This document shows, one piece after another, positions 25,288 to 63,581 of a stretch of 64,000 nt of DNA. A model generated the notes under the pieces. The model did no database searches, had not been told where the DNA came from, and saw only the letters and a list, made by a program, of their open reading frames with translations. Position 1 is the first letter of the stretch. Every line of letters begins with the position of its first letter. Made by a program: the position numbers and the translations under genes. The stretch comes from Neckera pumila (Eukaryota > Streptophyta > Bryopsida > Hypnales > Neckeraceae), in contig OZ018415.1 in NCBI GenBank assembly GCA_963969595.1, positions 9,796,001 through 9,860,000 of the forward strand. The letters are read 5' to 3'.

Positions 25288-26074
25288 CTGGCAAATGGAA
25301 TCAAGCATGACATATGTGGAGCATCTTGACCCATATGTAAGATTATCCAACCCTCCTTACAGATATAGCTAGATTTACATTTTCAGGTGGAGATAGAATG
25401 ATACTGGCTTGATTTGCATGATTAGTGAATTTTTAGGTTGCTGCAAAGCAGTTTGTGTTATCACATGTCAACACTGGTAGCCTGTTCTCTCATTTAGATT
25501 TTTCGAGATCTATGGAAGCGGTAACAACTTACTTGCGGCTTTAGCATACAATTTAGTGATCTATTTCAGGTTTGCTGACTTGCTTGAAATACTGCCAGGC
25601 CAGACATCTCAGGGTAAGTGAGAAGAAATATTGATCATGAACGAAGGAAGGGAGTTTCCAGTACGTTCTCGAACACGGTATGCAATGCTTCGCAGCCCGT
25701 CTCTGGAATTCTTGTTGTCCGAGATAATCTTTTGATTTGTTTACGTGCATAATAATCATCTCTTTTCTTCGGATCTCAAATTCTTTACAACCACCATCGG
25801 TACAGCATAAAACTTTTAGCACTGAAAATTGATGCTTACGTGTGCAGATTGTTATTATAGAGAAACAACAGAGGATCTTCCGATCAAAGCTCTTCAGAAC
25901 AGCGGGTTGTTCGACCATTTGTTTCCTATTTGTCGCGCTTTACAGCTGTGCCAAGCATCCGACCTGAGGGATAAGATCTAAGTTGCTCTCATTTCTATGG
26001 CAAAAAGATATTACTGCGCAGGAGAAATCTCTAGATGCCGACTATGGGCTGACAACTGCGGAAGCTTATGTCAA

Positions 26075-26237
26075 CACAGGGGGCGTTTTTGAGTTTCCCT
26101 GTTCTCACTATCCCATGTGAGAACGACAATCTTGTGACTTTACTCTGTGTTAGAATCTTGTGACACAAGGTAAAGTCACAAGATTGTCATTCTCACAGGG
26201 GAAAGTGAGATAGGGAAACTCAAAAAAGCCCCCTGTG
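26075..26237. mobile_element. Fold-back MITE, copy 1 (3-bp TSD CAA)
   Basis: This 163-bp near-palindrome begins CACAGGGGGC and ends GCCCCCTGTG, with inner inverted arms (GAGTTTCCCT, TTGTGACTTTA and others). It is flanked by CAA at 26072-26074 and 26238-26240. CAC-type ends plus a 3-bp duplication fit the CACTA (En/Spm) superfamily. Removing the element and one CAA gives an uninterrupted HET reading frame through AEAYVKYVAYFM, so it inserted into the HET coding sequence. Confidence 0.85.
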
Positions 26238-26682
26238 CAAATATGTAGCCTACTTTATGAAAGATTTTGGCCTTCAGGTTCTCACTTGCATGCGAGGGAA
26301 GTCCTCACTAACCAACTTACCATCCTGGGTTCCGGATTGGTCAATGAGCACCGGGTCTTATATTTTCAAATTGGCAGAATGGGGTAACACCCCTCTCCGG
26401 TTCAGTGTCGAATCATGTGGTTCCTCCATGCCCAGGTCCCTTGCTTTGAAGGTGAGGTGTTTTTCCTTAGGGTCAATCGAGGAGGTGGGAGATCAATAGT
26501 CCAGAATGGAGGTCCATTATCAAGGAGTGGGTCGACATTGTTCAGCGGCGCTTTGATCCTCGATCTGGTTGGTAGCACGAGATAAACAGATTTTATTACA
26601 CCATTGCTCCGCTGAGCACCTCAATAGAGCGTACTCCTATCCATAGATTTAGCAATTTCTGATTGGATGACGTTATCACAAG

Positions 26683-26879
26683 CACAGGGGGCTTTTTTGA
26701 GTTTCCTTGTCTCACTTTCCCTTGTGAGAATGACAATCTTGTGACTTTACCCTGTGTCACAATCTTGTGACTTACAGGTTAAAGTCACAAGATTATCGTT
26801 CTCACAAGGGAAAGTGAGAGGAAAGTGAGAGGAAAGTGAGAGGAAAGTGAGACATGGAAACTCAAAAAAGCCCCCTGTG
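26683..26879. mobile_element. Fold-back MITE, copy 2 (3-bp TSD AAG)
   Basis: This second copy of the same family is 197 bp, with the same CACAGGGGGC/GCCCCCTGTG ends, flanked by AAG at 26680-26682 and 26880-26882. It is longer than copy 1, partly because of a local tandem expansion of GTGAGAGGAAA units at about 26813-26852. It also lies within the decayed HET gene. Confidence 0.85.
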
Positions 26880-41401: not shown

Positions 41402-43472
41402 TTCGGTGCACTATCACTTTTGTTCTTATTGACTCTGTATTCTAGATTTTACTCTCTCTGATCATTTTCTTGCCATTATTTTGGGCGCATTCGCATGAGA
41501 TTTTAATCCCTTCTTTGTCAATTCCAACAACTAGGGATGAACGCTGCATGTCCGAAGCATGAAAATTTGTATTCTAAATGCTTTGCGACTTCATTTTTTG
41601 ACATACCTCTATATAGATCACCTCTGAAGGAGTTTATAATCATTGCAGACGATATTAAGACGTGCATTTTTATAAAAGTGATGCCCTGCATGCGTTCTAG
41701 TTCTTTTTTTATCATTAATTTCAGAAATTGTGTTCAAAACCTCACAGGTTTTCACCCCTGATTCCCTAAATGCTCAAGGCCTTTTTTGAGCTTGTTGGAA
41801 TTTGCTCTTAACTGAACGAAAAGACAACATTTTTGATAAGTTTTATCAATTTTTTAATTGTAACCAGACAAATTCAAACTAGACATGTTAAAGATGCCCA
41901 TGGGAAAAGAAATCACAACATCATCATTTATGGATTGAAAGATTAGGGGTAGTCATGGCTCCTTCATCCCATTCTGTGAAGGTTGAAAAGAGGGACGTGG
42001 CGTTTAGTAGCTGGCTTGTTGTGGCTTGTGCTTACTCCTTTCAATGAAGGTTGAGAAGGGTCGTTCTCTTCCTCTACAGGATAAGAATAGAGGTGAAGAA
42101 GTTTAAGCAATGGTTTTTTTAGTGAATAGTGACACAACAAGTAAGTTCTCTAGTCTCTTTCTCCACAATAAGCAAGAAGGGGTGTCACACCTTCTTCATA
42201 GAGAATGGGCTCTCATTGGTTCCATTGTCCTCTCCACATCTTCTCAACCTTTATAGAAACAAGAAGGAGTGACTACCCTTATTATAATGTTTGAACATGA
42301 GGGTGTTAAAACTGGGAAAGTGATTTGAAGTCTTTCAATTTTCTTTTCACACATCAAATCTAAAATCGAGGTCACCAAAAAAAACATGAGGTTAACCCCT
42401 AAATGCCCAAGGCCTGTTTTGAGCCTTTAGGAATTTATTCTAATTTGAACAAAAAGCCAACAATTTGATAAGTTGTGTCAATTTCTTTTGAACTGTATTC
42501 GTACAAATTCAAACTAAACATGTTAGAGATCACATAGGAAAAGAATATTGGAAAGGTTACAAATAATATCACTTATGAATCAAAAGATTATAATGTTTGA
42601 TCATGAGGGTGTTAAAACTAAGGAAAAATTTCAATTCTCTTTTTGCATATAACATCTAAAAAGTTGGTCACCAAAAAATATGAGGTTAAAGGGCCTAACA
42701 TGCATAATCCCAATCAATTTCCGGCTTCTCAAAATTTACTCTACAATAATTTTTAAAGGAATTTCTAATGTGATTTTTCTTCCAAGATCTAGTGTATTTG
42801 AGGCTCATTTTCAAAAGCCCATAACACTAAGGAAAGTCAAGATTGCAATGGATACCCTTGCACAAAATCTTGAATAGAAAAATCATAATCATTCATTTTC
42901 AAAATTGGATTTTTGGTGCTAAAACTAGACTTCAAAAAGAATCTTTCAAAAATATAAACTACTAAATATAGCAATTTGATAAGGTTTTATTTAACTTCAA
43001 AGTTTCTTCGACACCACATTTGGGTGCCTTGGGCATTTGGGGATAAAAAGGTAGAATATGCATAGTCCTAATCAAGTTATAGCTTCTCAAAATTTGTTTT
43101 ACAATTTTTTTAATGAATTTTTATTGTAATTTTTTTCCAAGATCTAGTATATAGGTTCATTTCCAAGAGCCCTCAATGTTAAAAAATCAAGATTTGCAAT
43201 ACATACCCTTGCACAAAATCTTGAATAGAAAATCATGACCATTTATTTTCAAAGTAGGGATTTTGACCCCTGAAGCAGTCCAACTCTTGGCAACGTTGTT
43301 ATGGACTGTATTGCTGTAGCTAGTAAATTTAGATCCATTCACTATCTATTTTTCAAAGAGTGGATCTCAATACATTCTTACAATCTTTTCTTAACTTCTT
43401 ATACTTGATATTGTTGTCTTCTACTCCCTTTGTCCCACTAAAAACCTCCAAATCAAGCACAATTCTTGTCCC
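41402..43472. other. AT-rich repeats between the hydrolase gene and the giant transposon
   Basis: No gene is supported. About 41757-41900 and 42396-42540 are related blocks ('aaatgctcaaggccttttttgagc' type and 'aaatgcccaaggcctg' type, then 'acaaattcaaactaaacatgtt'). The second belongs to a TIR element listed separately. Confidence 0.5.
42396..43042. mobile_element. Non-autonomous element with CCCCTAAATGCCCAAGG ends
   Basis: The left end CCCCTAAATGCCCAAGG (42396-42412) is mirrored by CCTTGGGCATTTGGGG (43027-43042) with one base difference. This gives a ~647-bp non-coding element. It is preceded by GGTTAA, as at other repeat ends in the window. Confidence 0.5.
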
Positions 43473-43482
43473 ACTAAAAAGC
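43473..43482. repeat. Left target-site duplication of the giant element
   Basis: ACTAAAAAGC here is identical to 63572-63581. A 9-11 bp target-site duplication is characteristic of MULE (Mutator-like) transposons. Confidence 0.88.
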
Positions 43483-43551
43483 GGGGAATGCTGGCATGTG
43501 AGCATGGAGCGGTGAGCGGTGAGCAGGAAGCGGGGATTGGTGAGCGGGGAG

Positions 43552-45888
43552 TGTCTGAAATGTGGAAGAAAAAAAAAAAGAGAAAAATTGATGAAAAAGT
43601 GGATGGAAGTTGATGGAAATGTGGGCAATTTTTGCTAGAATAAAATCTAGAAATTGGGCTGAAGAAATAAAGAAAAGTGGATGGAGGAGTAGGATGAAAG
43701 TCTGGGAAAAAAATTGTTGAAAATGGATGGAGGAAATGGATGAAAGTCGTGGGAATAATGGATGAATGTGTTTTGTAAAATGGATGGAAGTCATTCAAGA
43801 AATGGATGAAATTTGCTTGAGCGGTTTTGATGAAAGTAGGTGAAAATGGGCATAACTGAATGAAAAGAGGGAGGACATGAAAGAGGAAGGATTCCCCCAA
43901 AAAATATTAAATAGCAACTTTTCTTCAAAGCCCGTTTACAAGGAGTTAATTTGCTTGTATGACCGTGGAGAGTTCCTACAACCGTGCATTTAGGAATTAG
44001 GACACATATTCCAATTCACAATCAATTTTGACATTGCAACTTATAAGGACAAAACATGAGATGGGTGATGTTTTGGTGCTACAAGAAGAGATTTTGGCCA
44101 TGGCATAAGAGAATCATCCGAGTACTACTTCATCCATAAGAGGGTGAGACAAGCAAACAAAATTGAACTGAAATAATATATTGAGAACATTGAAATTTGT
44201 AAGAAACTGGATGTGCATTGTTAATGTAGCCTGAAGTAAAGCTAACAATTTGAAGAATTCGGTTTTGGAATATGGTCATCTTTTGCGGTTTGTGCATCAA
44301 TGTTGTGCTTAGTACAATGACAATGAAAGCCTGACGGTAAGGCTGTTACACCTCCAGTTTCTGTCATAGTGATTTAATGAAATTTTTGCAAAACTATGGC
44401 GTTCAATCTTAAAGAATCATTATTCGCTGCATTATCATTATATGGCCACTAGCTCACCATCTTCTTGACATTCATCATGCATCCCCTGCAGCAGACGACA
44501 AACTCATCCACTAAAACCAAAAACTTAATGAATTCCATGTTCAATGGACCAGAATCTCACAAGCGCTTGTTTTGGTGGGCAAGAGAGCAAACAATTCACA
44601 AATTCAGAATTATTAATCGAGGAGTTTGTGGTCTGGCTGAAGAAAATGCACGATGAATGTCAGTAAGGTGTTGAGCGGGTTGGATAATGATTGTAGTACT
44701 CATGAGGAGAAAAAACAACTAAGCAGAGATGATATTGAACATTGCGGATGAGTAGAAGAGACAGTCACTAAAACCAATGTAAAATGAACTCTCCGAGAGT
44801 GCTATCAACTAGAGGCACTAAAATTACTATACCAACATCAACAATACGTCAGTAGAAGTGGGATTTTGAAGCAAAATCCCCACTATGAGATATCTAAGAC
44901 CCAAGCACTAACCCACAAACATTGTGACAACTACATATATGCTATAACTCATAAGGGCGTCGAAGATAGCGTCATCCTTTGAAACCGACAGGAATGCCCG
45001 ACATGTGGCATGGAGTGATAAGGTTGTCATAGATCGCCTAATCCTCTTGAAAAGCTACAACAACAGGACACGCGGCATAAAATCCTTAGAAAGATGCACC
45101 ACGTGGCATCATATCCTAAGAATGAGATGACACTTGGCATCCAAGATAGGTTCCCCTCTTCAGAAGCCACTTCCAAGACGATATGTAGTACTACAAATTG
45201 GAAATCCATATCCAAGACAACATTATCAATATTTGGTGCATGTTGAAGAGAGAATTGGCATAAAATAAGAAGACTCGGCTACAACTAAAGAGGCACCTAA
45301 AACCGTCAAAATAAGGAATTCAGCATAGGCATTGGGGTTTAGGGTTGTAAAAATAAGGAATTCAACATTGGTGGGGGAACTCTTCTTTCAAATAGTATTT
45401 GTTTACGTATTAGTGAATGAAACTCATGAATATTAAGAAAATAAATAAAAGATTAGGTGGTACTATGTAATGTCTAGGATTCAAATGCGATTATACAGTT
45501 GGAATATAAAAATGTTAGGGCACAGTAATGAATGCTTATGGACAGATTTGGGAATAATATATGGTGTACTCCATGTAACAGGCACAGGGAGAAAATGGTG
45601 ATATACTCTAAATCAAAAGGAAAATCATATTATTATAAATTGGCTCGTGAAAATCAAAGAACCTGAAAGGAAGCTCATGCGGAAGCAATACTATTATGAG
45701 GAAGGTACATAAACATTCAGATACAAAGCATGTCGAAGGAAAAAATCCATTACTGAGATTGCATCATCCAAGTCAAGAATACAGATAATTCAAATACAAA
45801 AAACATAATTTAGCATCTGCATGGCAATCACAGAAATGTATTGAAAACAGTCATAGTAAAGCACGGTAATACTACAAAGACATTTGGT
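43552..45888. other. Left subterminal region of the giant element
   Basis: It holds the mirrored GGATGAAA-type repeats to about 43860, then AT-rich DNA with no supportable gene. ORFs in the repeat part are low-complexity translations of those repeats. 44.9-45.2 kb has balanced composition but no recognised domain. Confidence 0.5.
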
Positions 45889-48800
45889 TCATGACGAACT
45901 ATCCTCACTGTCTGCTGCCATTGAGTCTGAATCTACAGTACAGTCATCTCCATACTTCAAAACGCGAGGATGTACCAAACCTGCTCTAGGAGCTGGTCTA
46001 GGGTTTAAGGCAACTAAATCCCTAGCTACTGCGTCTGCGTATACAGGGAGTTGAAATGATTTTGGTGGGCTTGGGAAAAATCCAGCTCTAGCAAAAAATG
46101 GAACGTGTGTGACTTTGGTCACTTCTTGGATTTGCCTACACACCAATTAATCACATATTAGATCACATGAATTTCATGTTCGTTGTGTACCATCAAAAGA
46201 AGATATTAAATGAAAACTTACTTACTGAATCGGTTGGTCTTCACAATACGTTGGATTGGTACTTCTTCTTCATCCAAATCTTCAACTGCAACTTCAGGGA
46301 TTGATGGTTCAAGACACGGAACTATTGATGCACGCATGACCGGAGCAATGAGGGCATCAAATATAGCTTTGTCTTCCTCAAAGGCTAAAATATGACGACA
46401 AGCAGTACGGCAAGCTTGAATGCTTGAACCTGAAAATATACAAAACAAACAAAGAAAACGCTGCATAAGATACATGACCAAGTTCAAGTATGTAATCTAA
46501 CATCGTGGAAATAGTAAAATGGCAAGCACAGAATACCTGTAGATGCTGTGCAATCCACCACAACGTCTCCTGGTTGAGTGAGCCCTTCCACAAGCATCTG
46601 CATGAACTCCCGAGCCTTCTCTCGGGGACCACGCCATGGTTTTGGCCCATTCATGCTCACGTCTTCCTTATTGCAGAAGTTCTGCAAAATGTCATCTCGG
46701 CCCACTGTGACACCCACCGCTTGATGGGATGCGACAAATTGGAAAGGAAATTCCAAATCGGTCTTAGGTCCACATTCCTTGACCACAAGAGCAATGGTGA
46801 AGTGCATAGTCTGCAATACAAATGAGTTAACACTGTCACTATAGTATAGGTGATAATTAAATGGAGACATAAATGGGGGTAGAGTGCTTGTTACCGTCTT
46901 TGTTGGATTTGCCGGCTTTGTCAAATGGAGATGATTCATGCCAGTCCAAGTGACAAGGAGTCTGAATTTGTATTTGGCGCAACATCCAAGGAGGTGGCTT
47001 CTGTGCTGTCGAGATTGGAAGGGATACATCACCAGCAGGGGCGCGCCGTCATGAAGGTACTCTTGAGCAAAGTCAAACACGGGCTGCAGGTACTCAGTGG
47101 GATTGAAGTCATTCCACTTCGGAATTGGTTCTGGTGGAGCCGAAATCGAAGGCACATGGAGTCCTTCGGGAACATCTACAATGATGAGGTCCACGGCTGA
47201 CTTCGCGATCATTTTCCCTTGGAAAGATCGGTCCTTATCACAGGCATGTTGTATGAGACAACAAAATGAAATAAAATTTGATTAAAGAAATTATACAGTT
47301 ATTGACTGAGAACATGTGTGATGTCATAAACCAGTAATTTATATATATGGAGGCCAGATCAATAGAATTTCTTACCATTTCCAAGAAGGCCTCCACATCA
47401 GCCATGGCTTTAGAATTATTGGGCAAATTACCCAAGGACAAGTTGAGGATGCATTCATCAATGTCAGCCATGGGTGCCAAGTTCATCAATGTAGGTGTAA
47501 GCCCATGCACTAAGCGCTCCTGAGTGAGTGAGAAACCCGAAGATGTGTCCTTCATGTCCGCTGCACTTGTCTGAGGTTCATGAATAGGTGTCTCAGCCTT
47601 CCTCTTTGTGCCCTTCTTCTTGGCCTTCTCCTCCTCCTTCTCAGCTTTAGATGCCATCTGTTTTTTCTTGGTTTCTTCTGTTCTCTTCTTCGCATCCTCC
47701 CATCTCCCCTCCTTTTTCTTGTCGGCTGCCCCCCTTCGCGCAACAGCCTTAGCTCTAGCCTCTGGATCTAGTCCAGCGAACTCGTCAAACTCTGGCTCTT
47801 CGGGTGCGGCGGACTAAAGTGTGTTGAAGAGAGTCTCTTCCTCTGGTGGCGTGGTTCCAAAAACACATTCGAGGTACCATGGGCATGCCTGCAAATGCGG
47901 TGTGGTCCAATTCTTAATCTGCGAGGCAGAGAACATGCAATCTGGGGAGGTCCTATCTAACCAGGTAGTCAGAAATGGGGGTAGGTCCGTCTTCTGGATG
48001 GCTTTCTTTGCGTACAACTCAAATTTGAAATACCTGCAATAAAAGCAGTTCAAGAGTGTTGTATCCAATCAGATTATAGGGGAAAAAATGAAATGTAGAA
48101 GCTCCACCAAGACCTGGGAATTTAACTAGCAGTCAAGACAAACTAGAAATGAACAAAATGGAGATGAAAGCGTCTCTCAGATCCCTAGAAATTGTCTTCT
48201 GGGCCCGAGAGGACCTGCATTAGGTGGCTGACGATCTGAAATTGGAAACAGGTCCTAAGATTCACGCCAAGAAATTGGAAGACAATGGACAGAGAACTGG
48301 CTAATCATGATCCCGGTTATCAAACACAAAGGGGAATGGGTATTCTCTTGAGGATCAGAAATTGATTCATAAAGGCCGACGTACCACTTCATGCAACCAT
48401 GACAAGTTCCAAAAAGAGCAAATTAAATCAACAGATGACCAATACAAACAACAGAAAATGAAATGAAGTTCAGAACCACTAAAGAATATGTACAATGCAA
48501 AGCATGGAAAAAGTCCTATGGTAAACAAACACTAGGACTATCAACTACTGTTTATTGCAGTGAAATTCACGCACATTCCACAATACCTGTATATCAACCG
48601 CTTCACAGCCAACATGGCCCCCCTAAAGTCCTTGAATGACTCAGACTTCTTGAAGGAGTCCGATCCCTTAAAGCTACTTGTGTACGCCATGTCCCACAGC
48701 TTCATTCTCCAGCACTCAATGTATTCGTGAAGGGTTTGCGGCTCCGTTTGAACAGACATGTCGATTGGAATGTTATCCGAATGGCTGATGCTATCAAACA

Positions 48801-50534
48801 TCTCCGTGGCTGCCTCTTCCAGCTACAGGGAAAATTGGCATGCAAATGGTGGATGAAATGTTAGGTTGTAGTAGTCTACCAATACTAGGAGTGAAAGGCA
48901 AACGCAACTATGTATGTAGAATATAAACACATGAAGCTGGAATATATAAAATATGTTATTACAGTAATACGTACCCCGGCATACCAACATGCCTTTGCAA
49001 GGAATGTCAACAGTCTATCCTCGTTAACTGGACGAGGAGGAAACCGCCTGGCTTCCCGAGTCGGATTAGAGGAATTCATCCACTTCAGCCACTTAATCTT
49101 GTGTGCTGGACTGACATTGGATGTTGAAATCATGTTCAACTTCTCCAGTGTCAACTCTGACACTGCAAAAAGGTTCCAGTGCCTCTCGATCTGTAGCAAT
49201 GATACAAATATTGATGAGAGAACAATTTAGAAAGACAATTGAGTAATTGCAATGGTTGAATAGAACATGGTACTCACTTCCTGTAGCCACTCTGGGCCTA
49301 GACTTGGGGTGGCCACTGACACAATTTTTGACAGTTTTTGATACAACAATCTTGTCGAATCCTTGATAGAAGTCTTCATTGCATCGGCTACTCCTTCCTT
49401 TGTAACTTCGGCGGCAGGCGTATCTTCGTTATACTTTCGAACTGCTTGATCAGCAGCTGCAGAAATTTCTTGCTGACATCCAAGATGTATCACGGAATTA
49501 GCTAAGAATAGATTCATTGACTAAATCATCAATTAAATGAAGATCATGAACTGATAAAGGCTAAGCAATATACCTTGAAGATGAAAGACGTGAAGACCTC
49601 AAGGGGCATAGTGTACCACTTGGTTCTTGTCGTCTGTAAGCAGGTCTTAACCTCTTCGGGGCTAAGAAGCTCTTTCAACTTGTCAATTTCCATAACACCG
49701 TATTTTTGAACTCAATAGAGGGTGTGCACCAAGTTGGTCTTGACGTGATAGTTCTCGGTGTGCCTGCCATACACATATCATTCAAAATTGCATGAGCATT
49801 ATCAAAGCACATGCTAGTGAGGACGGGATTCAATCATGAAATTAGGAACATATAGGAGAAGACAACAAATGGAATGTTGCAAAATCATACTTGTTTATGT
49901 TGTGCATGGCTTGCATTGCCACTCCAATCTGATTCCGCGTATCCAAAATGATGGAATCCACAGCAATATGCCAATCTGGTTCCGTTGAATGAAGCCGCTT
50001 AATATGGTTCATCCAAGCTATACGTCTATGATTTCCATCGCAGACATATAGTTTGAAATCGACCAAGTGCTTTAGCGCAGGCTGGGATACCAAATACTTG
50101 TTGAACTTGTCATTTGCCGAATTCCAAATCGGTCCCCATTCAAGTTTCTCAGCATCGGAGAATACTCTAGTCCGTCCAGCCTCATCACAAATTGATACAT
50201 AAAAGACACGAGCCCCCTCCTCATATCCTCGAGTGAACTGATTCTCTAGCATAGTGAGGTCACAGGTGAGTGTCGGACGAACAATTGGCATAGGCACCAT
50301 CCTGCACAGTGGAATTTTCATTCTAGAAAACTCGTTCGAAGTTAATCGTAGACCTTGGAGGATTGAAACAGTATCCAGGGTCTGGGTCCTCCGGATGTCG
50401 TCCTCCATGAAATCCTCGCAAATTCCAGGAAGTTGGTCTTCAGATATCTCGTCCATCTCCACATCAGTGCCACCTTCCGATTGGAGTCCGGTAACATCCA
50501 TTGCTGTCTGGGTTGTCCTAGGATGGTTTGCCAT
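45889..50534 (-). pseudogene. ParB/Srx-like domain plus DNA amino-methyltransferase-like protein (transposon cargo)
   Basis: Ten exons on the minus strand: 50534-49891, 49763-49574, 49472-49278, 49190-48975, 48822-48587, 48033-47376, 47233-46895, 46810-46537, 46429-46222 and 46135-45889. ATG 50534 is used; an in-phase exon at 50796-50683 may precede it. The N-terminal ~190 residues end in KLYVCDGNHRRIAW, resembling the DG-x-HR-x-x-A core of ParB/sulfiredoxin folds. A helical middle and a Lys/Glu-rich stretch follow (exon 6). The C-terminus reads in beta-class order: DLIIVDVPEGL in place of catalytic (D/N/S)PP(Y/F/W), a Rossmann core, then GDVVVDCTASTGSS as SAM-binding motif I. The changed catalytic tetrad makes activity doubtful. 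In-frame stops are TGA 49712-49714 and TAG 47814-47816, each one transition from a sense codon. Splice sites are otherwise clean. Confidence 0.72.
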
Positions 50535-51049
50535 CGAACCGGTTTCCACAGTATTCTGTAAGAAGGCAAGAATATGTAAAACAATTAGAACTGGAAAATC
50601 CTCTCTTCAAAAACGTAGTTAGAGAGCAAAAGTGACACCTATATTTGAAACAGATGACGAATCCCACCAGACATACCCTAAACGGATGGACAGGGAGGTC
50701 TGTAGCAGCTATCGCCATGGCCCCGGATGGAGTATTGTCTTCAAGAACCTCCAGTGCACCTCGCGTTGGGGGATTTTTTGTTTGCCCACTGACCACCTGT
50801 CCCCGATCAATATATCGAAGAATTAGCCATCAGATAGAAATCCTGACAGGATAATCAAATACGATCAAAAGCATGACTATGAACTTGGTGATAAGATCCC
50901 TCCTGCAGTAATTGGTTCAAGGATAGCAATTACATATAAAGCAAGTAAAGCAAATCTGCGAAGAAGAAGATGAAATCTGTTGTCAGAGTGACAGCTAGCC
51001 TCCATGAAGATCAGCATTTGGTAGTGTTAGGATTCCCTCTCCCGGCTCG

Positions 51050-54000
51050 CCAGAATTGGTGTCTCGGGCCCAAGAGACCTAATGGAGTCCGCGAGCCGAG
51101 CAACAAGACTGACCTATTTGGACGCAGTATCATCCCTAAAGAGCCTTGTTTGCGTAATACTTCCACCATTCATAAGAAACATTGTTCAAATGCAACAGCT
51201 CCCAAATGGATATACTAACGGGAACCAACAGAGATTCTTACAATGTAACGCATGTTCTTTTGACCTAGAAATTGGTTGAGATTATTTTGAATTATATGGA
51301 TTAGTGGCTGTAATAAGTCACTGTGATTTCTAGGTCGGACCCCTCAAATTAGAATATAGACCCTCTCCCGGGACCCGAGATTTGGTCTCTCGGGCCCGAG
51401 AGGACTCCGGGAGCTGTACGCTGTTGCATTAAAACATTCCTGCGACCAATATCACAGAAGTTCATTGGGATGGATAACGACTGGAAGATCATCAACAATT
51501 TCGTTCATTACATCATTTAGACAACAAGATCACCCTCTCCGGTGCAAAGAGAATTGGTCTCCCAGGCCCGAGAGGACTCTGGGATGTGTCACCTCATGCA
51601 CCAATACTGCATCTCCATCGTCCATATTATTCAAGACAATGGTAAATAATGAAATTGCATTCAACTACTAACATAAAAACCCTCCGACAATCTCTTTGAT
51701 GGAAACAAAATGATACGTAGATAATTATGAATCTAATCTTAAATCATGCGGTTGGGGATCAGTATCACATAAATCTATATCACGAAGTGTGATTATTCTG
51801 ATGTATTAGCCATGACCAGCACCCAAATGATTCGGATGTTCTGGATACGAGTATGCAGCGACCAGATACAAACCCTCTCCCTCGGCCCGAGAATTGGTCT
51901 CTCGGGCCCAAGAGACATGTGAATGCTGCATGCTATTGCAACGGAAACTATCCTCTCGACCATCCTAAACCAGAACCACGCCAAATTAAAAGTTCACATT
52001 CATTTGAAGTTTTGATCTAGGCAAGCAACGCTCTATACAAGGACAAGCATGGCCGCAATCAAACTCAATTTTATCAATTGAAAGCTTACAGTCAAGATGA
52101 CCTCAGGAAGAAGCACTAGAATATTGCATCGCTAAAACAGTTAGCGAACCAAACCTACACTCTCTAAGGACCCGAGAATCGGTCTTCGGGGTGAGATCAA
52201 TACTGAATAATTCCCAAGACATTCGTCTAGTGTTCATTGTCACTAGGATCAAGTCAACGAAATGTGTTTGTTCACTTGTTTTTATGGTGCAGCAGCAGCA
52301 AGAAATGGTTCGGCTGATTTACCCTCAAGTTTCAGAATTAATTAAAACAAATCTTCTCCCGCTGCCCGTGATTTGGTCTCTCGGGCCCGAGAGACATCTG
52401 GGACCTCCATGCAGTCGCAACAAAATCAGTCCTCTCCAGCATCCGTATAAAAAACATCACAAAATCGAAAGTTCACATTCATTTGATACTCTGATCTAGA
52501 CAAGCATCTCACCGAATGAAATGAACCATGACCGCAATGAAACTCAGTTATATCAAACGAAATCATATAGTCAAGATGACCTCAGGAAGAGGCAATGGAA
52601 TTTCACTTCGTCGGAACAGTTAGCGAACCAATACTACCCTCTCCCGGTACCCGAGAATTGGTCTCTCGGGCCCGAGAGACATCCGGAACCTTTAAGCAGT
52701 TGCATCAAAATCAGTCCTCTCCAGCATCCGGAAGAAAAAACTTCGCCAAATCAAATGTTCACATTCATTTTATATTTTGATCTAGACAAGAATCTCACCG
52801 TACCAAAAAAACCATGACCTCAACCGAACTCAATTATATCAAACGAAATCATACAGTCGGGATGAACATTGGAAGAAGCACTGGAATTTCACTTCGTCGG
52901 AACAGTTAGCGAACCAATCCTACCCTCTCCCGATGCCCGAGAATTGGTCTCTCGGGCCCGAGAGACATCTGGGACCTCCATGAAGTTGCAACAATATTAG
53001 TCCTCTCCAGCATTCGGAAAAAAAAAACTCGCCAAATCAAAAGTTCACATTCTTTTTATATTCTGATCTAGACAAGCATCTCACCATACCAAAAAAACCA
53101 TGACCGCAATCAAACTCAATTATATCAGACGAAATCATACAGTCGGGATGAACACTGGAAGAAGCACTGGAAATTCAATTCATCGGAACAGTTAGCGAAC
53201 CAATCCTACCCTCTCCCAGGACCCGAGAATTGGTCTCTCGGGCCCGAGAGACATCTGGGACCTCCATGAAGTTGCAACAAAATCAGTCCTCTCCAGCATC
53301 CGAGAATAAAACTTCGCCAAATCAAAAGTTCACATTCATTTGATATTCTGAACTAGACAAGAATCTCACCGTGCGAAATGAACCATGACTGCAATCAAAC
53401 TCAATTATATCAAACGAAATCATATAGTCGGGATGAACACTGGAAGAAGCATTGGAAATTCAATTCGTTGGAACAGTTAGAGAACCAATCCCACCCTCTC
53501 CCGGTGCCCGAGAATTGGTCTCTCGGGCCCGAGAGACATCTGGGACCTCCATGAAGTTGCAACAAAATCAGTCCTCTCCAGCATCCGGATAAAAAGCTTC
53601 GCCAAATCAGAAGTTCACATTCATTTGATATTCTGATCTAGACAAGCATCTCACCGTACCACAAAAACCATGACCGCAATCAAACTCAATTATATCAGAC
53701 GAAATCATACAGTCGGGATGAACACTGGAAGAAGCACTGGAATTTCACTTCGTCGGAACAGTTAGCGAACCAATCCTACCCTCTCCCAGGACCCGAGAAT
53801 TGGTCTCTCGGGCCCGAGAGACATCTGGGACCTCCATGAAGTTGCAACAAAATCAGTCCTCTCCAGCATCCGGATAAAAAGCTTCGCCAAATCAGAAGTT
53901 CACATTCATTTGATATTCTGATCTAGACAAGCATCTCACCGTACCACAAAAACCATGACCGCAATCAAACTCAATTATATCAGACGAAATCATACAGTCG

Positions 54001-56400
54001 GGATGAACACTGGAAGAAGCACTGGAATTTCACTTTGTCGGAACAGTTAGCGAATCAATCCTACCCTCTCCCAGGACCCGAGAATTGGTCTCTCGGGCCC
54101 GAGAGACATCTGGGACACTCAATCAGTTGCATCAAAATCAGTCCTCTCCAGCATCCGAGAATAAAACTTCGCCAAATCAGAAGTTCACATTCATTTGATA
54201 TTCTGATCAAGACAAGCGTCTCACCGTACCAAAAATACCATGACCGCAATCAAACTCAATTATATCAGACGAAATCATACAGTCGGGATGAACACTAGAA
54301 GAAGCACTGGAATTTCACCTCGTTGGAACAGTTAGCGAACCAATCCTACCCTCTCCCAGGACCCGAGAATTGGTCTCTCGGGCCCGAGAGACATCTGGGA
54401 CCCTTAAGCAGTTGCATCAAAATCCGTCCTCTCCAGCATCCGGAGAAATACTTCACCAAATCAAAAGTTCACATTGATTTGATACTCTGATCTAGACAAG
54501 CATCTCACCGTACCACAAAAACCATGACCGCAATCAAACTCAATTATGTCAAACAAAATCATATATTCGGGATGACCACTGGAAGAAGCACTGGTGTTTC
54601 AATTCGTCGGAACAGTTAGCGAACCAATCCTACCCTCTCCCAGTGCCCGAGAATTGGTCTCTCGGGCCCGAGAGACATCTTGGACCCTTAAGCAGTTGCA
54701 TCCAAATCCGTCCTCTCCAACATCCGGAGAAATTCTTCACCAAATCAAAAGTTCACATTGACTTGATACTCTGATCTAGACAAGCATCTCACCGTACCAC
54801 AAAAATTATGACCACAATCAAACTCAATTATGTCAAACGAAATCATATAGTCGGGATGAACACTGGAAGAAGCACTGGGATTTCGCTTCGCCGGAACTGT
54901 TAGCGAACCAAACCTATCCTCTCCCGGTGCCTGAGAATTGGTCTCTCGGGCCCGAGAGACATCTGGGACCTCCATGAAGTTGCAACAAAATGAGTCTTTT
55001 CCAGCATCCGAAAGAAATTCAATGCCAAATCAAAAGTTTACGTTCATTCGATATTCTGATCTAGACAAGAATCTCAGCGTGCGAAATGAACCATGACCGC
55101 AATCAAACTCAATTATGTCAGACAAAAACTTATAGCTGGGATGACTACTGCAAGAAGCAGTCGAAATTCAATTTGTTGGATCTGTTAGCGAACCAGTCCT
55201 TCCCTCTCCCGGTGCCCGGGAATTGGTCTCTCGGGCCCGGGAGACATCTGGGACCTCTAAGCAGTTGCAACAAAATCAGTCCTCTCCAGCATCCGAGAAA
55301 AAATCATTGTGATATCAAATGTTCAAATTCATTTGATATGCTGATCTAGACAAGCATCTCAGTGTACAAAACAAAACATGACCGCAATCAAACTCAATTA
55401 TATCAAACGAAATCATATAGTCGGGATGAACACTGGAAGAAGCACTGGAATTTCACTTCTTCGGAACAGTTAGCGAACCAATCCTACCTCTCCCGGTGCC
55501 CGAGAATTGGTCACTCGGGCCCGAGAGACGTCTGGGACCATTAAGCAGTTGCCAAAAAATCAGCCCCTCCAGCATCCGAATAAAAATCATTACCAAATCA
55601 AAAGTCCATATTCATTTCATTTTGTATTTTGATCTAGACAAGCATCTCACCAAACGAAATGAATTATGACCGCAATCGAACTCAATTATATCAGACGAAA
55701 ACTTATAGTGGGGATGAACACTGGAAGAAGCACTGGAATTCCAATTTGTTGGAACAGTTAGCGAACCAATCCTACCCTCTCCCGGTGCCCGAGAATTGGT
55801 CTCTCGGGCCCGAGAGACATCTGGGACCCTTAAGCAGTTGCATCAAAATCAGTCCTCTCTAGCACCCGGAAAAAAACTTCACCATATCAAAAGTTCACAT
55901 TCATTTTATATTCTGATCTAGACAAGAATCTCACCGTGCGCAAAAAACCATGACCGCAATCAAACTCAATTATATCAACTGAAATCATATAGTCGGGATG
56001 AACACTGGAAGAAGCACTGGAATTTCGCTGCGACGGAACAGTTAGCGGACCAATCCTACCCTCTCCCCGTGCCCGAGAATTGGTCTCTCGGGCCCGAGAG
56101 ACCTCTGGGATCTCTATGCAGTTGCAACAAAATCAGACTTCTCCAGCATCTGAGAACAAAACATCGCAAAATAAAAAGTTCACATTCATTTGATATTCTG
56201 ATCTCGACAAGCATCTCTCTACACAAATAGAACCTTGACCGCAATCAAACTCAATTATATGAAAACAAAACTTATAGTCAGGATGATCACTGGAATGGAA
56301 GAAGCACTGGAATTTTGCTTTGTTGAAACAGTTAGCAAACCCAACCTACCCTCTCCTAGGACTCTTGAATTCGTCTCTCAGGCCCGTCAGGCCACTGGGC
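51050..56400. repeat. Tandem ~285-bp satellite array centred on a 20-bp palindrome
   Basis: The perfect palindrome GTCTCTCGGGCCCGAGAGAC or a near copy recurs at 52376, 52661, 52947, 53233, 53518, 53803, 54088, 54373, 54657, 54941, 55226, 55510, 55799 and 56083, a spacing of 284-289 bp. More diverged copies occur near 51056, 51385, 51556, 51897, 52173 and 56371. Each unit also carries 'cgaatcaatcctaccctctccc' type sequence before the palindrome and 'gttcacattcatttgatatt' after it. The central units (about 53.5-54.1 kb) are nearly identical while the edges are degraded, the usual signature of unequal exchange. Isolated half-sites occur at 48198-48214 and 60787-60802, inside introns of the two element genes. 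Confidence 0.93.
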
Positions 56401-56758
56401 GCCACAACCTCGAGCACTCTATACTCTGTCTACTGCATATCAGCGTTACTGTTGTGCATCCCCGAGAAGACAAAAATGTGGAAGAGGTTTACACTCTCGA
56501 AGCAACCCTTTCTGGCCCACCTGATTCAACGCAATACCTAATAAACATTCAACATTTTAAGAGATGGACATCCGCTCCTCACGCCAGTGCAGTTCCTGTT
56601 TGTGGCAATTGTCAAAACCCTGTTGAAAGCCGTGCGGCTGGGTTCATCAGGCGGCCAGGTTCGACCTAAATCCTAAATTTAATTCTGTGTGGTACAAACA
56701 TTCCTGTGAGGCACGAACAGCAATGACTATCGCATCCAAGTTTGGTGATCTTGCATAC

Positions 56759-56848
56759 CTCGGATACAATGTTCTCATTGTTTCGTGAAGGAGTCTCCGA
56801 AAGCACTTCCCCTTGTTGACCTCGCCGTGAACGCAGGTTCGCTGCCAT
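56759..56848 (-). other. Possible captured host first exon inside the element
   Basis: On the minus strand an ATG at 56848 opens a 30-codon frame (MAANLRSRRGQQGEVLSETP and ten more) ending at a good donor (GAG|GTATGC). Upstream (56850-57020) is GC-richer, promoter-like DNA with ATTAGGGTT near 57004. It looks like the promoter and first exon of a host gene carried in the element, as in Pack-MULEs. The parent gene is not recognised. Confidence 0.35.
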
Positions 56849-57059
56849 CTTTAAGCTCTAGAAAATCGCCCAATTCGCCGTAGCAGAATGCAGTGACCTT
56901 GCGGAAGACCTCGCACAAGCCTGGTCTTGACCTTCACCAAAGCAAATCGCGAAATCGTGTAGCGGCAGAGGCGGCGTGGTTCTCCTGATCTCGGGGCCCC
57001 GTATTAGGGTTGGAGGTGTGAGTCATTCGTTGAACTGAGGCCCCGCATCATGGGCAAGC

Positions 57060-57180
57060 GAGCTTGGGCCGGTACCAGGCCTTGGGCTTGGGCTTGGGCT
57101 TGGGCCGGTACCAGGCCTTGGGCTCGGGCTTGGGCCGGAACCAGGCCTTCTACTTGGGCTTGGGTTGGAACCAGGCTTGT
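57060..57180. repeat. Short GC-rich minisatellite
   Basis: Four imperfect copies of a GGGCCGG(T/A)ACCAGGCCTTG unit are interspersed with GGGCTT hexamers. A 66-residue ORF across it is a translation of the repeat, not a gene. Confidence 0.7.
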
Positions 57181-58414
57181 ACTGGGCTGTTAATTCCGTG
57201 CTGTAATTTTCCTCGGGCCTACTCTTTTCCGAGTCGTGATTCTCTAGATGACACAGGAGGTTAAATGCTGCATTCGGATTGAGACGCGCAATGTGAAATC
57301 ACAGGAATGTTAACCCCCGAAAGAAGTACAACAATTTATTATTATTTACGTATCAAAATTCTTTGAAATTTTGAATTTGTATTTGCAATCAAAGGCTGCA
57401 TATGAGCTAGTTTAAGTTAACATCTAACCCTACACTTGGCTTAAAATAGGGGCACGATTATTCATTTATCCCCACTAATTTGTGCGCATTCACCCTGTGG
57501 GTCCCAGTTTGAATGCAGGATTTCAGTGTTTTACTAAGTGACTCGATCCTTTCCCTCGTCCAATAAGTGATATCCACTGGTTACAATAATGGACCACTAC
57601 GAGACAGACCACAATCCTAATCCAAGGATGGTATGTGGCATGCAATGTTCATATACATATAAATCTAGCGTTCAACTGCTTCTCATTATGATTTACGTGA
57701 AATTAAAATGTGGGATTTATAACTTAAATATCGAGGATCATTTGCATGATCTAGAATCAATATTATGGGGCAAATCAGGAACGTTATGATAAGATCCAAG
57801 TCCTTGTCATCAATTTCTAGCGTACAGAACCACATCTATGGGGGGGTGGCAGGGTACAGTGGTATGCAGCCACGGAAGATAACTATGTGTCCCGTTCCCC
57901 AGAATTCTGTATCCTTTTTGCCCTTTATATTGCAGGCAAGTAGTGGTATGCATTTAATGGTTAAGTATACCCGGACACTGACATACTTTAAATTATTATG
58001 CTAGGATTTGTGGCGGCTTCAAGCAAGGTCTATATTTCTAGTTTCGATTTATATTATCCTCTGTACTAACTACACAGCAAAAATGATGTTTGTCACTAAA
58101 CGGTAATCTTGTTCTTATATTGCTATTATCAGTGAACAGACTAGTTCTCTTTGGTCCTTCCTATATTCTTGTACTCCTCGCTACTTGATGTGCCTCAACC
58201 TCTTGTCGATATGTTGAATGTCTTAGGTGTGTAGATCATAATGCCTGGTACCGCTTTGTAGTGATGTTTGCACTTGATCCCATTTCTTATTACAGGCTCA
58301 GGCTATGAGCATTATATGTTGTGGCTAAGGATCCGATGCTATGATGTTCTCTCTTGTGGTAGCATAGATAATTAGTATTCAATTTCGCAATATTGGTAGT
58401 CCAGTTCTATAGAG
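57181..58414. other. Upstream region of the transposase gene
   Basis: No recognised gene. Moderately AT-rich, probably promoter and 5' UTR of the transposase gene. A 5' non-coding exon is possible but not demonstrable. Confidence 0.35.
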
Positions 58415-61400
58415 ATGCCAGACTTCCAGGGTATGGTAGTCGTTAGGGCCAATGGTGAAGGAGTCCCCTTGATTTTTGAGGTAGGCCAAGATGGATTGGC
58501 AAGTGTGTCCGCCTTTAGATTGAGTCTTCGTTTTCAGTTTTCAGCGAACTCGATTCACGTTGACGAAGATATCTTTGATCCCATCTCAGGAGAGCTTACG
58601 CATACTATAGGTGAAGTACCAGCACAGATTGGAGACAACACTTCTTGGCAACTGAAGCCAGGGAATTATAGAGCATACGGGATTCCAATTTCAGGGCTTC
58701 AACCTTCTACGGACGTAGTAACACCTTATCGGTCCTCTTCGTCCTCGTTTATAACTCCGCCTCCAATTGAAGTCAAGATGGAACCTCGAGTTGACAATGT
58801 CACAGTCCTAAGTTCTGACTCAGACATGACTTCTCCTCCTCCACCATTGAACTCGGGGACTCCTTCTTCAAAGACGACTTATCGTAATCATTCTATGGTG
58901 AAGGTCCCCGCGGATGTGATATTTGGTGAAGGATCTATAACATCTGTCATTGATTGCTTGAGAGGATTAAGGACCCTCAAGGGATGTAGGAATGTGTTGT
59001 CAAAAATTGACTATGACAAGGTTAGCATTCTGAGAGTGACCACCCTCCCTCCTACTTTTAATGGAGACATCATTTTTGAGCTACCAGCATTAGAGAGTGG
59101 TTCCGCTTCCTCTTATGCCAAGCAAATGATTGGGATGGATAAGAAATACGACGGTCATGTTTGGTCTAAGACAATCACGACAAACATCACTAATCCTATG
59201 GGGTTGTCATTTCGCACTTCCGCTTGTATAGGGCACCTTAGATGTACAAACCAGAATTGTGAGTTCCTAAGCCGTGTTCACCGAACTACGACCATCAATG
59301 AGTTGGAATGGGAAGGTCTATGTCCCATGACGCTTGATCCTACAGGGTCGCATCCTCCTGGGTCAACTTTGGTTTGTAAAATTTGTAAGGAGCCTCCAAC
59401 TTGTATTCAGAATTGTCCTGTCAAAGTATACTACGTCGTTGGCAACTACAAGACGACCCGTGCATTTGTACACTTGGGCATTCACAAGCATCCCGTCAAG
59501 GAGGGAGAATTGAGAGACGTGAAAGACATTACCCGATCCCTAATTGGCCAGCAGATGGAGAAGACACCAACTGCGACAAATTTGTCCATTGTACTGGAAG
59601 CTACGAAGGAACTACTTGGCGACCTTCTCTTGCGTCCGGATGGGGTGGTGCCAAAGACCATGGACTTTGCTGAACTACTTCCGGTTTTAGACAAGTGCAA
59701 GTACTTCAGCTCTCCAAGTATTTGAAACGAGGTAACTTCTTTTAAATATTTGCGGAGATTTGGTGTGATAGATAGTATTACACAGTTGAGGGGAGCCAGT
59801 ACTTGGGCATTTGTTCAAGAGAGCAAATTTCCAGGACAGGGAACCGATGATGATAAAGTTTTTGTCTTCAAGATGGCCGAAGTAGGTCCAGGAAGTGGAG
59901 TGGACTTAGTGAAGCGCATGCAAGTGGGAGGTGACCTAGAGGATGCGTAGATCATGTTTGATCATGTGAAACGTGTTAAAGGCTGGACTACAATGGCCTG
60001 CCATGTCTATGACTCTTCATACTGTCGGGTTATGACAATTGCGATTTGCGACATGCAATCAGAGGATTGCGCAGCTCAGATTTTGTTTTGGAGGAATCTG
60101 AACTCTGTTCTTGAATGACACGGGGTACCGCATACTCAGTTCAAAGGATTTATGGCTGATAGTGCTCAGGCAAACTGGAATGCTGTCAGGACTATTTATG
60201 GATTGGGGGACATTGCCGTTCCAATGGAAAACAGGGAGCGGACATGCCTCTTTCATTGGACTCAATCCATGGAAAAGCACACCAAAGCTGAAATCCGTGG
60301 GGACCTTCAAGATCAGCATCGACTGCTCTGCAAACAATACAAAAATGCTGTTTCGTCGGAGGAATCAGAAACCCGTTATTTGGCAATCCGGGCTTGGTGG
60401 CTCACATCTGGTGCTACAACTGAAGAAGGCCTGCATCGACTGGAGTTGTGGCTATCATTCTGGCATTTTCGATATCGGCAGTGGGGCGGCTTCATGCAAC
60501 TTGTAAGTATCTATTCCAAATGATTATCGTGTGGGTAATGTATAAGCGTCTGCCTGTCTATCCGTCTTCCTTATAATTATATGTTCTTGAATATTTGAAG
60601 TATAAATGAGTATCCTCATGACTATTGTTGTACAATATTTTGGCTCAAGGAGTGTCATATGTCTAGAAGCGTATGCTACAGATGTTTCGGTGTCAAATCT
60701 TCCAAAATAATTTTCATAGGTCTTCTCTCTTATTCATCATTATCAGATGAAGCTATGCATGCTTAGGCACCTCACAAGTGTCTTTTGGGCCCGAGAGGCA
60801 TTTCTCCGAGGCTACTTTATGGAATTTATTCTCTTGATATCATGGAAATGTGGTAGACTGCACTATGACATTGGGAGCCCTATGTATAACGTATAGCGCT
60901 AACAATACAACAACAAATGGACTTGTTGTTTCCCTTCTTCTAGAATCCACGGCTGGATTGCTTTGGATTGCTCATTGTTAATCCAAGTTTATCATAGTAA
61001 TTTACCAATCGTTTGATTTGTACGCATCCACAGCACTTGATAGCATCATATTCTTTTCCTTCTTTCTATAAATGAAGGTAATTGTGCAATCTTTCTACAG
61101 AATTTGAGCGAATCCGAATTGGCAGAAATGACATCGTATAACCTTGCGGAGACAGTGCACAATAAGTGGCTTCAACAGTCTGGAAATCGGGGTAACGATT
61201 TGTACATAGCCACTGTTGACGACTTTGTAAGAGCTTTTATGCAAATGGTTAGGTACCACCAGTACCTTAAAGGCAACGTACCTGGGACAGGCCCCGGCAA
61301 GGAAGAGTTGTTACTCCGAGTTGCTCAACGTTCGGCTGGGCGGACCGGAAACCCTAAAGTGCTCGCTCAAGCTATATCAAGCGTTCCAGGGGTTGAAGAA

Positions 61401-62570
61401 TTTGTTAAAAGGGAGCCCCATCTAGAAGGTGAAGAAGTGTTTGGATCCCAGAAGAGGAAGGCAGACATGCCATTTGGATGCGAGCACGATTCACATAGAC
61501 CTGATAAGGTGAATTTCTCGTATCCTCGCATCCAAACCAGATCCTATAGAGCCTCTTCAAGTGTTTCTCAGTTGAACACAATTACTGAAGACTTGTTGAC
61601 AACAGAAGATGCAATATTGGCGGAGGCGATGGAAACTGAAGATAATTGTGGACAACAGAGTACACATCTATTCTCTCATGCAACAGCAATTCAGAAGAGT
61701 GACTGCGACGAAATGCACTGGCACATAGCAAGGCTACCCAAAACATCAGCGAAGGCTTGCTTTGCTCTGCAAGCAATATCTAAGAAGAAGTGCACTGCAA
61801 AGATTGTACAGAACAATATTGCTACAGCAGCTCCAACATATACTGGTATGATGGAGAATTACAAGAAGAATCGGAATGACAGGATGCAGTTCTTCTTTTG
61901 CAATGATGACATTCAACGCTGCGTGAAGGGTACAAAACGGAAATGGGTGTTGTCCCGTCCACCTGTTCCTTCCATTTGGCCAGTGAAGAGGGGCACTGCA
62001 TTGTCCAAAGCTGAAATTCTAGCATTTGAAGCTGCTGGTTTTCAACTCCCTCAGCGTGAAGTCATTTCACCACGAAGACTATTTGGCGGCGAAGCAGGTA
62101 TAGATTTAGTTTCTTCTTATCCTATTCCTTCATCAGCAGATGACCATCCTAAAATCCGAGGAGGGAAATTGATTCGACGTAATATGAAGGCCCCCTCCAC
62201 CAAACAAGCAAACAATTGTGCTTCTGCCATGACCTTAACTGCACGCATTACCCGTGTGACCATGGTGCCTCACCCGGGTTTTGGGTGCATAGTTTGTCTC
62301 AGTTCTGGAGCAGAGACAAGGAGTCAAGAATATATGATTTCGATTTCATCGTTCCCGAGCTGCAGTTGCCCTTATTTCAATGAAATGACAATGAAAGCTT
62401 TGGGGAGGCGAGGACAATGGGCAAATTGCAAGCATTTATATTTTGTTTTCACAATCATTTGCAACCTGCAGTGTGTAGATGATGTCTTCATTCATTCTCC
62501 GAGTTTTAGTTTTAATGAAGTGAAACGAGTACTTCTGAGTGGGATACTGAATCATTTAGATTTGAACTAG
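58415..62570 (+). pseudogene. MULE-type transposase with WRKY/GCM-like and SWIM zinc fingers
   Basis: Two exons, 58415-60502 and 61101-62570 (GT-AG, phase 0), about 1186 codons. The N-terminal third contains a Cys/His pattern (CIGHLRCTNQNCEF, then GIHKHP) like the WRKY-GCM DNA-binding fold found in many MULE transposases. The core reads IMFDHVKRVKGWTT (candidate first Asp), FKGFMADSAQANWNAVR (second Asp) and the CLFHWTQSM (C-x-x-H) motif. NLSESE at the start of exon 2 is a candidate for the catalytic Glu region. A SWIM zinc finger follows near the C-terminus (CSCPYF ... NCKH), the usual MULE accessory finger. Three in-frame stops lie in exon 1: TGA 59723-59725, TAG 59948-59950 and TGA 60116-60118. 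The frame is otherwise open. Assignment rests on motifs plus the element's ends. Confidence 0.8.
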
Positions 62571-63502
62571 GTGTTGGTTCTCCAATGAGCCAGCTCTTCA
62601 TGTGATCTATTTTATTCATCAATGAAGTAGTAGTGAGACTAAAAGGGCCACTACTACCATTATTATTTTACATTCCTAAGAGGACAAGATGCTTTGTCTT
62701 CCCCAAATTTTTATATACTTGCTTCTACTATATAGGCTGTGCCATTTATGTCATGATGTGTTAAAACTTTCTATTTCTGAATCCTATAGCCCCAGATAAT
62801 TTCATGCTTAATCATATCCTTTAAACATAAATATGATTGCCTTAAAGGTGGATCTTGTAATGAAAAGGGAAGGTACAAATCAACGTGAAAATGACTATAT
62901 CAGCACAAGCACGCTAGAAGGTATCATTTAGAGTAGCAATATTTTGTCCCTAAACCCATCCCCCCTGACTCTTAATGATCTAGGGGCATCCCTAAACATC
63001 TATCATAGGCTCTATATTGAGGAAGTCACCCAATCAAAAAGTATGTTTAAATTAGATTCTCTATTTCCTCGGACATTTACACATGATGTTGCAGATTTTA
63101 ATTTTAATCCAGCATCATCGACCTTTTTCATTCAATTATATTATAGATTTCTTGCATCTACACCCTAAACCTCGTTTGCCATCCAACTTTTCATGCACGG
63201 TCATTGAAATTTTCCACAATGAATCATTCATTGTTATCAACTTTCATCCACATTCAGTGTCCTTTTCATCCATTTTTTCATCCACTTTGATCTACTTTCA
63301 TCGTCCTTTTCATCCATTGTTTTCATCCACTTTCATCCCTCTTCATCGCCATTGTCATCCAATTCTTTTCATCTACTTTCATCCATTTTTGCCATCAACA
63401 GTCATCCAATATCCTTAAATAATCATTCACCCTAACCCTACATTTAATCAAAATTTTCACTTTATTTCATCGAAGTTTTCTTTTTTCAAACCCCAATCAC
63501 TG
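62571..63502. other. Right subterminal region of the giant element
   Basis: About 63240-63420 is packed with TTTCATCC-type direct repeats, mirror image of the GGATGAAA motifs near the left end. A TAAATAATC... then CCCTAACCCTA stretch sits at 63416-63442. The ORFs there are repeat translations. Confidence 0.6.
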
Positions 63503-63571
63503 CTCCCCGCTCACCAATCCCCGCTTCTTGCTCGCCGCTCACTGCTCCAAGCTCACGCGCTAGCAACGCTC

Positions 63572-63581
63572 ACTAAAAAGC
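63572..63581. repeat. Right target-site duplication of the giant element
   Basis: ACTAAAAAGC is identical to the left copy at 43473-43482. The shared string extends one more base (C) at the 5' side on both flanks, so the duplication is 9-11 bp depending on the exact cut site. Confidence 0.88.

Follow-up and report, generated by a model that had tools for sequence, protein, structure and literature searches.

Several described Mutator-like DNA transposons (MULEs) provide the background for the locus studied here. Barley Hvu_Abermu measures 8,176 bp, has terminal inverted repeats (TIRs) of 138-145 bp and a 9-bp target-site duplication (TSD), and stands out in its report as far larger than the other MULEs considered there; TSDs of 7-12 bp are quoted in the same paper (PMC9168764). 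In Arabidopsis VANDAL21, a short motif is repeated in tandem upstream of VANA21 and within introns of both VANC21 and VANB21; the protein VANC21 was found to bind it, and methylation is lost (PMC5735166). VANDALs as a group are described as MULEs without TIRs (PMC13317346). Pack-MULEs have transposase provided in trans, with none above 7 kb in one study (review PMC6431247), and arthropod MULEs range from 1.4 to 10.0 kb (PMC13359780). Outside transposons of this type, the bdelloid amino-methylase N4CMT has a permuted order, with the catalytic part before the part binding S-adenosylmethionine (SAM) (PMC8885841). Here, we analyzed 64,000 nucleotides of Neckera pumila contig OZ018415.1 (positions 9,796,001 to 9,860,000; hereafter the window), in which we find, with high confidence, one inserted MULE at 43483-63571.

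The Neckera element resembles Hvu_Abermu in its long inverted ends starting with G, a TSD within 7-12 bp, a Mutator-type transposase and an extra gene in opposite orientation, but differs in length (20.1 kb versus 8.2 kb), in its palindrome array and methylase-like cargo, and in a transposase that lacks a Pfam transposase profile above cut-off. With VANDAL21 and VANC, it shares an accessory gene in a MULE and a motif concentrated in noncoding tandem repeats, introns and upstream regions; it departs from that system in its 69-bp TIRs, in a motif that is a palindrome of 18 bp within a repeat unit of 285 bp, and in its methylase-like cargo. Because VANDALs are non-TIR MULEs, the 69-bp TIRs rule out membership of that group. 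Pack-MULEs share the presence of extra coding sequence, but the Neckera element combines an intron-bearing gene with its own, though broken, transposase gene, which rules out a Pack-MULE in the sense of captured fragments without a transposase of their own. The methylase-like domain follows permuted N6_N4 amino-methylases (PF01555; bdelloid N4CMT, phage adenine methylases) in placing the catalytic before the SAM-binding part, but scores below the Pfam cut-off, reads DVPE at motif IV and belongs to a 1073-codon gene in a plant transposon. At 20.1 kb, the element exceeds the published MULE sizes compared here (7, 8.2 and 10.0 kb), consistent with the initial annotation, which called it larger than typical MULEs. 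The combination of accessory gene and motif array in a MULE is known; new are the different parts making it up, among them a bacterial-type amino-methylase-like domain carried inside a plant transposon. Among the open-access papers retrieved with the search terms used and judged by title and start of abstract, none reported a MULE with a methylase-like or ParB-like gene.

Ends of the element and a second genomic copy

The boundaries comprise the following features:

43473..43482, plus strand: left TSD ACTAAAAAGC
43483..43551, plus strand: left TIR of 69 bp, matching the right repeat at 58/69 positions
43590..43830, plus strand: left subterminal region with three exact forward copies of GGATGAAA-type repeats
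63201..63390, minus strand: right subterminal region with seven exact reverse copies of GGATGAAA-type repeats
63503..63571, minus strand: right TIR; the similarity of a second genomic copy stops at 63571
63572..63581, plus strand: right TSD ACTAAAAAGC

The initial annotation had proposed a single ~20-kb MULE-type transposon at 43473..63581. An insertion with these ends was recovered, but the coordinates enclose the duplications, so that the element proper spans 43483-63571 (20,089 bp). The annotated 69-bp inverted repeats were reproduced at 58/69 when counted from 43483/63571, as against 52/69 from 43473/63581; the pair gave a BLAST E value of 1e-18 within the window, where the runner-up inverted match to the left 69 bp reached 41/69 and overlapped the same right end. 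The perfect 10-bp TSD likewise held, with ACTAAAAAGC confined to the two flanks on both strands of the window; at random position pairs, a 10-bp direct match arose in 4 of 200,000 draws. Mirrored subterminal motifs were present as described, with three forward copies of GGATGAAA in the left 400 bp, seven reverse copies in the right 400 bp and one elsewhere in the 64 kb. Both the inverted repeats and a TSD within the 7-12 bp range are hallmarks of the Mutator superfamily. The right outer base is ambiguous by one, and an end at 63570 with an 11-bp duplication is formally possible; we prefer 63571 because the similarity of the second copy ends there. Directly left of the insertion (43429-43482), TGTCCCACTAAAAA is present twice, so part of the duplicated sequence may predate the insertion as a local repeat.

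The second copy was found in one of 27 untargeted places sampled from the same assembly (26 of 10 kb and one of 2 kb), at C2:2,007,400-2,012,418 (sampled place C2:2,000,001-2,010,000). Its end matches the left inverted repeat of the window at 84% over 63 bp, it carries subterminal repeats, and its transposase has the same orientation relative to the end as in the window, at a distance of 0.9 kb compared to ~1.0 kb. The two transposase proteins share 76% identity over 697 residues and 78.5% over 512 residues. Nucleotide similarity to the right end of the window's element halts exactly at 63571, with different bases beyond it, so the position of this end is established without recourse to the duplication. 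Paired ends around similar contents, which the initial annotation asked to see elsewhere, were not found in the sampled places: the second copy supplied the right end and the transposase, whereas the 24.6 kb before the latter yielded neither left end nor array nor cargo. This upstream stretch contains 2.8 copies of a 21-bp tandem repeat, CCCTCTCTAATATCACACTGT (L022:5940-5997), which may represent that subfamily's own motif array.

When 292 kb sampled from the genome were compared with the window between 44 and 58 kb, nothing matched at E 1e-6. Close to 57359-57410, three short matches (36-52 bp) reached E values of 2e-4 to 8e-3, and one further locus (L029) weakly matched the cargo (E 0.11).

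The transposase and cargo genes

The transposase gene lies in the right part of the element:

58415..62570, plus strand: transposase gene of 1185 codons, with predicted exon 1 at 58415-60502, intron at 60503-61100 and exon 2 at 61101-62570
59960..60160, plus strand: catalytic core with acidic residues D516 (59960-59962) and D582 (60158-60160), predicted RNase H-like fold
62361..62435, plus strand: SWIM-type motif CxC ... CxH, aligned with the PF04434 match of relative P0053

As annotated initially, a transposase with a SWIM motif is present inside the element, yet its gene has three in-frame stops, at codons 437, 512 and 568. D516 and D582, the two acidic residues of the DDE core that could be assigned, are invariant and lie within the predicted RNase H-like fold, and the predicted fold of a transposase relative corresponds to a Mutator/IS256-fold DDE transposase. 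The SWIM zinc finger was assigned by aligning CxC...CxH with the stretch of P0053 that matches PF04434 at 22.8 bits (cut-off 19.6). Pfam returned nothing for the window transposase protein or for P0001. Among 54 transposase relatives, PF04434 matched one and PF00872 one (E 0.034); most are ~700 amino acids long and end before the SWIM-bearing exon. The family has conserved cysteine/histidine positions and additional N-terminal domains. A search of phages with transposase exon 2 gave no match. The relatives considered for the transposase, for the methylase-like exon and for exon 1 of the cargo gene are sequences without genomic context.

Oppositely oriented to the transposase is the cargo gene:

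45889..50534, minus strand: predicted cargo gene of 10 exons and 1073 codons, a hand-made model
50534-49891, 49763-49574, 49472-49278, 49190-48975 and 48822-48587, minus strand: cargo exons 1-5
48033-47376, 47248-46895, 46810-46537, 46429-46222 and 46135-45889, minus strand: cargo exons 6-10
49891..50534, minus strand: cargo exon 1, a conserved DGNHR-motif domain with weak ParB/DndB-type resemblance
45889..47248, minus strand: cargo exons 7-10, a permuted N6/N4 amino-methylase-like domain with motif IV DVPE and SAM motif DCTASTGS

The modeled exons join in frame, with in-frame stops at codons 232 and 567, and the putative introns are GT-AG save for the acceptor of intron 6 (before exon 7), which is AA. 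Together with the three stops in the transposase gene, these two rule out an intact autonomous element: the copy in the window is now either dead or reliant on a functional relative.

For exon 1, there are 53 relatives, including P0057; in the 17 that were aligned, the DGNHR motif keeps D, G, N and H without exception. Its sequence resemblances to ParB and DndB are weak and serve as leads only. A structure model of the domain, with a predicted local distance difference test score (pLDDT) of 49, gave no usable fold match and no ParB among its fold matches, which says little at such confidence. A sequence search of the PDB with queries A1 and A2 yielded nothing below E 0.1. The DGNHR exon had one unannotated match among phages, at E 1, and none among plasmids; its alignment pattern gave 15 pattern matches in genome contigs, none of them a relative. 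In viral contigs, transposase and DGNHR alignment patterns produced 13, 35 and 231 pattern matches and no relative.

Exons 7-10 match PF01555 at 21.8 bits (E 2e-4), below the cut-off of 26.7; their match to a DNA methyltransferase of PHROG has an E value of 4.4e-6. Phage records matching the domain at E 1 or better numbered 165, and in 20 of these the alignment covered 80% or more of the 240-residue query; the best ten of the 165 had E values of 3e-4 to 7e-2 and identities of 22-25%. Two relatives were found for the methylase-like exons (P0055 and P0056); P0055 may share a contig with the exon 1 relative P0057, given that the longest contig is of equal length (4168) for both. The domain order is permuted, the catalytic part preceding the SAM-binding part. 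Motif IV of N6_N4 amino-methylases has the consensus [DNS]PP[YFW], from which the DVPE of the cargo departs, as do the two phage enzymes compared (DIPY and DLPF); P0055 also reads DVPE. The methylase-like cargo of the initial annotation is thus upheld as a resemblance, but with an altered catalytic motif and in-frame stops. The domain may serve to bind DNA or have an altered enzymatic role, and not act as an ordinary methylase. Downstream of the gene, a short minus-strand frame at 44911-45054 (...KDDAIFDAL...) resembles, by eye, cargo exon 9 (...EEDKAIFDAL...) and is perhaps the remnant of a duplicated exon.

The palindrome array and its candidate readers

Between the 5' ends of the two divergently transcribed genes lies an array whose motif recurs in one intron of each:

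51036..56411, plus strand: array of 19 modules on the palindrome TCTCTCGGGCCCGAGAGA, delimited with a module profile and including degenerate modules
48193..48214, no strand assigned: palindrome-like site in cargo intron 5, 22-bp profile
60779..60800, no strand assigned: palindrome-like site in the transposase intron, 22-bp profile

The satellite array of the initial annotation was confirmed, with Tandem Repeats Finder reporting 14.0 copies of a 285-bp period in a core array at 52355-56356, and proved to be built on an 18-bp palindrome that also occurs in introns. All modules share one orientation and are centered on TCTCTCGGGCCCGAGAGA, with the exact 14-bp core TCTCGGGCCCGAGA in 13 of the 19. 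The array starts ~0.5 kb upstream of the cargo gene with a weak module, the first strong one being at 51362; on the other side, 2.0 kb separate its end from the 5' end of the transposase gene. A short GC-rich tandem repeat (CTTGGG.../GGTACCAGGC) occupies 57062-57176, between array and transposase. The palindrome had no matches in viral contigs.

With the 22-bp profile, the cargo-intron site (20.3 bits) and the transposase-intron site (24.5 bits) were the only places in the window outside the array above 9 bits. For comparison, we simulated 100 order-1 Markov sequences of 58.5 kb, scored on both strands, and tried profile widths of 22, 30 and 46 bp. Maxima with the 22-bp profile averaged 7.4, with 13.2 at 95% and 16.8 at the top. 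At 30 bp, the cargo-intron site scored 15.4 and the transposase-intron site 7.1 (null 95% 8.7, 99% 11.7, maximum 16.2); at 46 bp, the scores were 21.4 and -6.0 (null 95% -6.3, 99% -5.1, maximum -1.4). The cargo-intron site is therefore strong at each width, though a simulated maximum exceeds it at 30 bp. As in VANDAL-type elements, the motif lies in noncoding tandem repeats and in element introns, for the transposase intron with the 22-bp core profile only. The transposase intron of the second copy has no BLAST similarity to that of the window, and a forced alignment was patchy. Among 556,782 positions in 29 sampled loci, the top score (9.2 bits) nevertheless fell in this second intron, at offset 264 (by the visible splice site) compared to 277 in the window; with two mismatches to the 14-bp core, it is the sole place within two mismatches in the 29 loci.

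Mechanistically, the 69-bp ends would be the cutting sites of the DDE transposase, with probable assistance from the GGATGAAA-type subterminal repeats, and the 10-bp duplication would have arisen on insertion. Because the layout is like that of VANDAL21, we think that the array and the single intronic site per gene form a cis-acting control region read by an element-encoded protein. The most probable reader would be the cargo protein; in the manner of VANC in VANDAL21, it would protect the promoters of the element from silencing. A MULE with two genes, a cis-control region of this kind and the cargo protein as its most probable reader is our best overall explanation, with a probability of roughly 55%. 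Taken singly, a bound control region has about even odds, and a palindrome-binding cargo protein with an anti-silencing role is a tentative proposal, by analogy with VANC. We regard as rather unlikely the wider idea of a giant plant MULE lineage that evolved epigenetic self-control independently of VANDAL/VANC, in which a ParB-like domain joined to an altered bacterial-type amino-methylase would read an 18-bp palindrome held in a partition-site-like array between the promoters and in introns. Should the array be the target of the cargo protein, MULEs may have acquired anti-silencing repeatedly and by means of unrelated proteins; it would then be a general strategy instead of an Arabidopsis curiosity, and the cargo would be a plant protein newly recognized as a sequence-specific reader of DNA.

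Several observations weigh against this explanation. The cargo protein is without demonstrated homology to VANC, and the ParB resemblance of exon 1 is weak (PHROG ParB, E 0.12 over 23 residues; DndB, E 0.094 in one of 17 members scanned). The transposase-intron site falls below the 95% null at 30 bp and is borderline at 46 bp, so its strong support comes from the core, one of three widths tried. The site in the second copy scores within the range of simulated maxima, and its weight thus lies in its position. Over 24.6 kb upstream of its transposase (L022-L024), the second copy showed no left end, array or cargo, so it is truncated or of another architecture, and none of the 27 sampled places held a further copy in which both ends, or cargo and array together, are present. 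Accordingly, that cargo, array and transposase form one mobile unit, as first annotated, follows from the ends but has no second full-length copy to match it. Some of these points would suit a different reader, either the transposase or a host factor, with the array as an enhancer or transposase-assembly region and another role for the cargo, for example, modifying element DNA. The conserved cysteine/histidine positions and further N-terminal domains of the transposase family could bind DNA, and the second copy retains the transposase and a weak intronic site, with cargo and array not found nearby; however, transposase binding would already be the suggested role of the subterminal GGATGAAA repeats. 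The position of the array, nearer to the cargo gene than to the transposase, does not decide the matter, and we consider this alternative unlikely, though one to be reckoned with.

A neutral satellite that expanded in the intergenic region, with intronic matches as chance or old fragments, is similarly unlikely and disfavored. In its favor, growth of a tandem array requires no function, the transposase-intron site scores weakly under the wider profiles, and that of the second copy is weak in itself. Against it, both clear matches outside the array sit in introns of the element's genes and, with the core profile, exceed all 100 simulated maxima; in addition, the best match of the sample lies in the second copy at an intron offset close to that in the window. 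We also disfavor, as improbable, an otherwise ordinary MULE that captured the cargo gene and array, or into which they were nested as a repeat of their own. Their absence within reach of the second copy would fit; the longest inverted pair, however, was 41 nt at 78% when each side of the array was searched separately, the 44 to 58 kb interval is unmatched in the sampled genome at the threshold given above, and the array palindrome recurs in the transposase intron. Finally, an origin of the two ends from different elements, with a coincidental duplication, would fit the dense repeats of the left flank, and no empty site came to light. The 58/69 inverted match, the perfect 10-bp repeat exactly outside it and the mirrored subterminal repeats make this very improbable, although the second copy bears on the right end and transposase only. 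A single Mutator-like insertion is well supported because ends, duplication and subterminal repeats agree with the fold predicted for a relative of the transposase and with a second copy that stops at the identical base, in keeping with the initial annotation.

Surroundings of the insertion

Rfam and tRNA searches of the window returned zero matches each. Left of the element, dispersed repeats at 2135-5312 include copies 76-80% alike within the window, and 1-530 and 2135-5312 match several sampled loci of the same genome at ~78-93%. An inverted repeat of ~140 bp (87-89%) at 26066-26879, resembling miniature inverted-repeat transposable elements, is accompanied by an 11-bp tandem repeat at 26809-26852. 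A pair of genes that marks the window as land-plant nuclear DNA, encoding a Mur ligase on the minus strand and, next to it, a pentatricopeptide repeat (PPR) protein on the plus strand, lies at 20200-25300.
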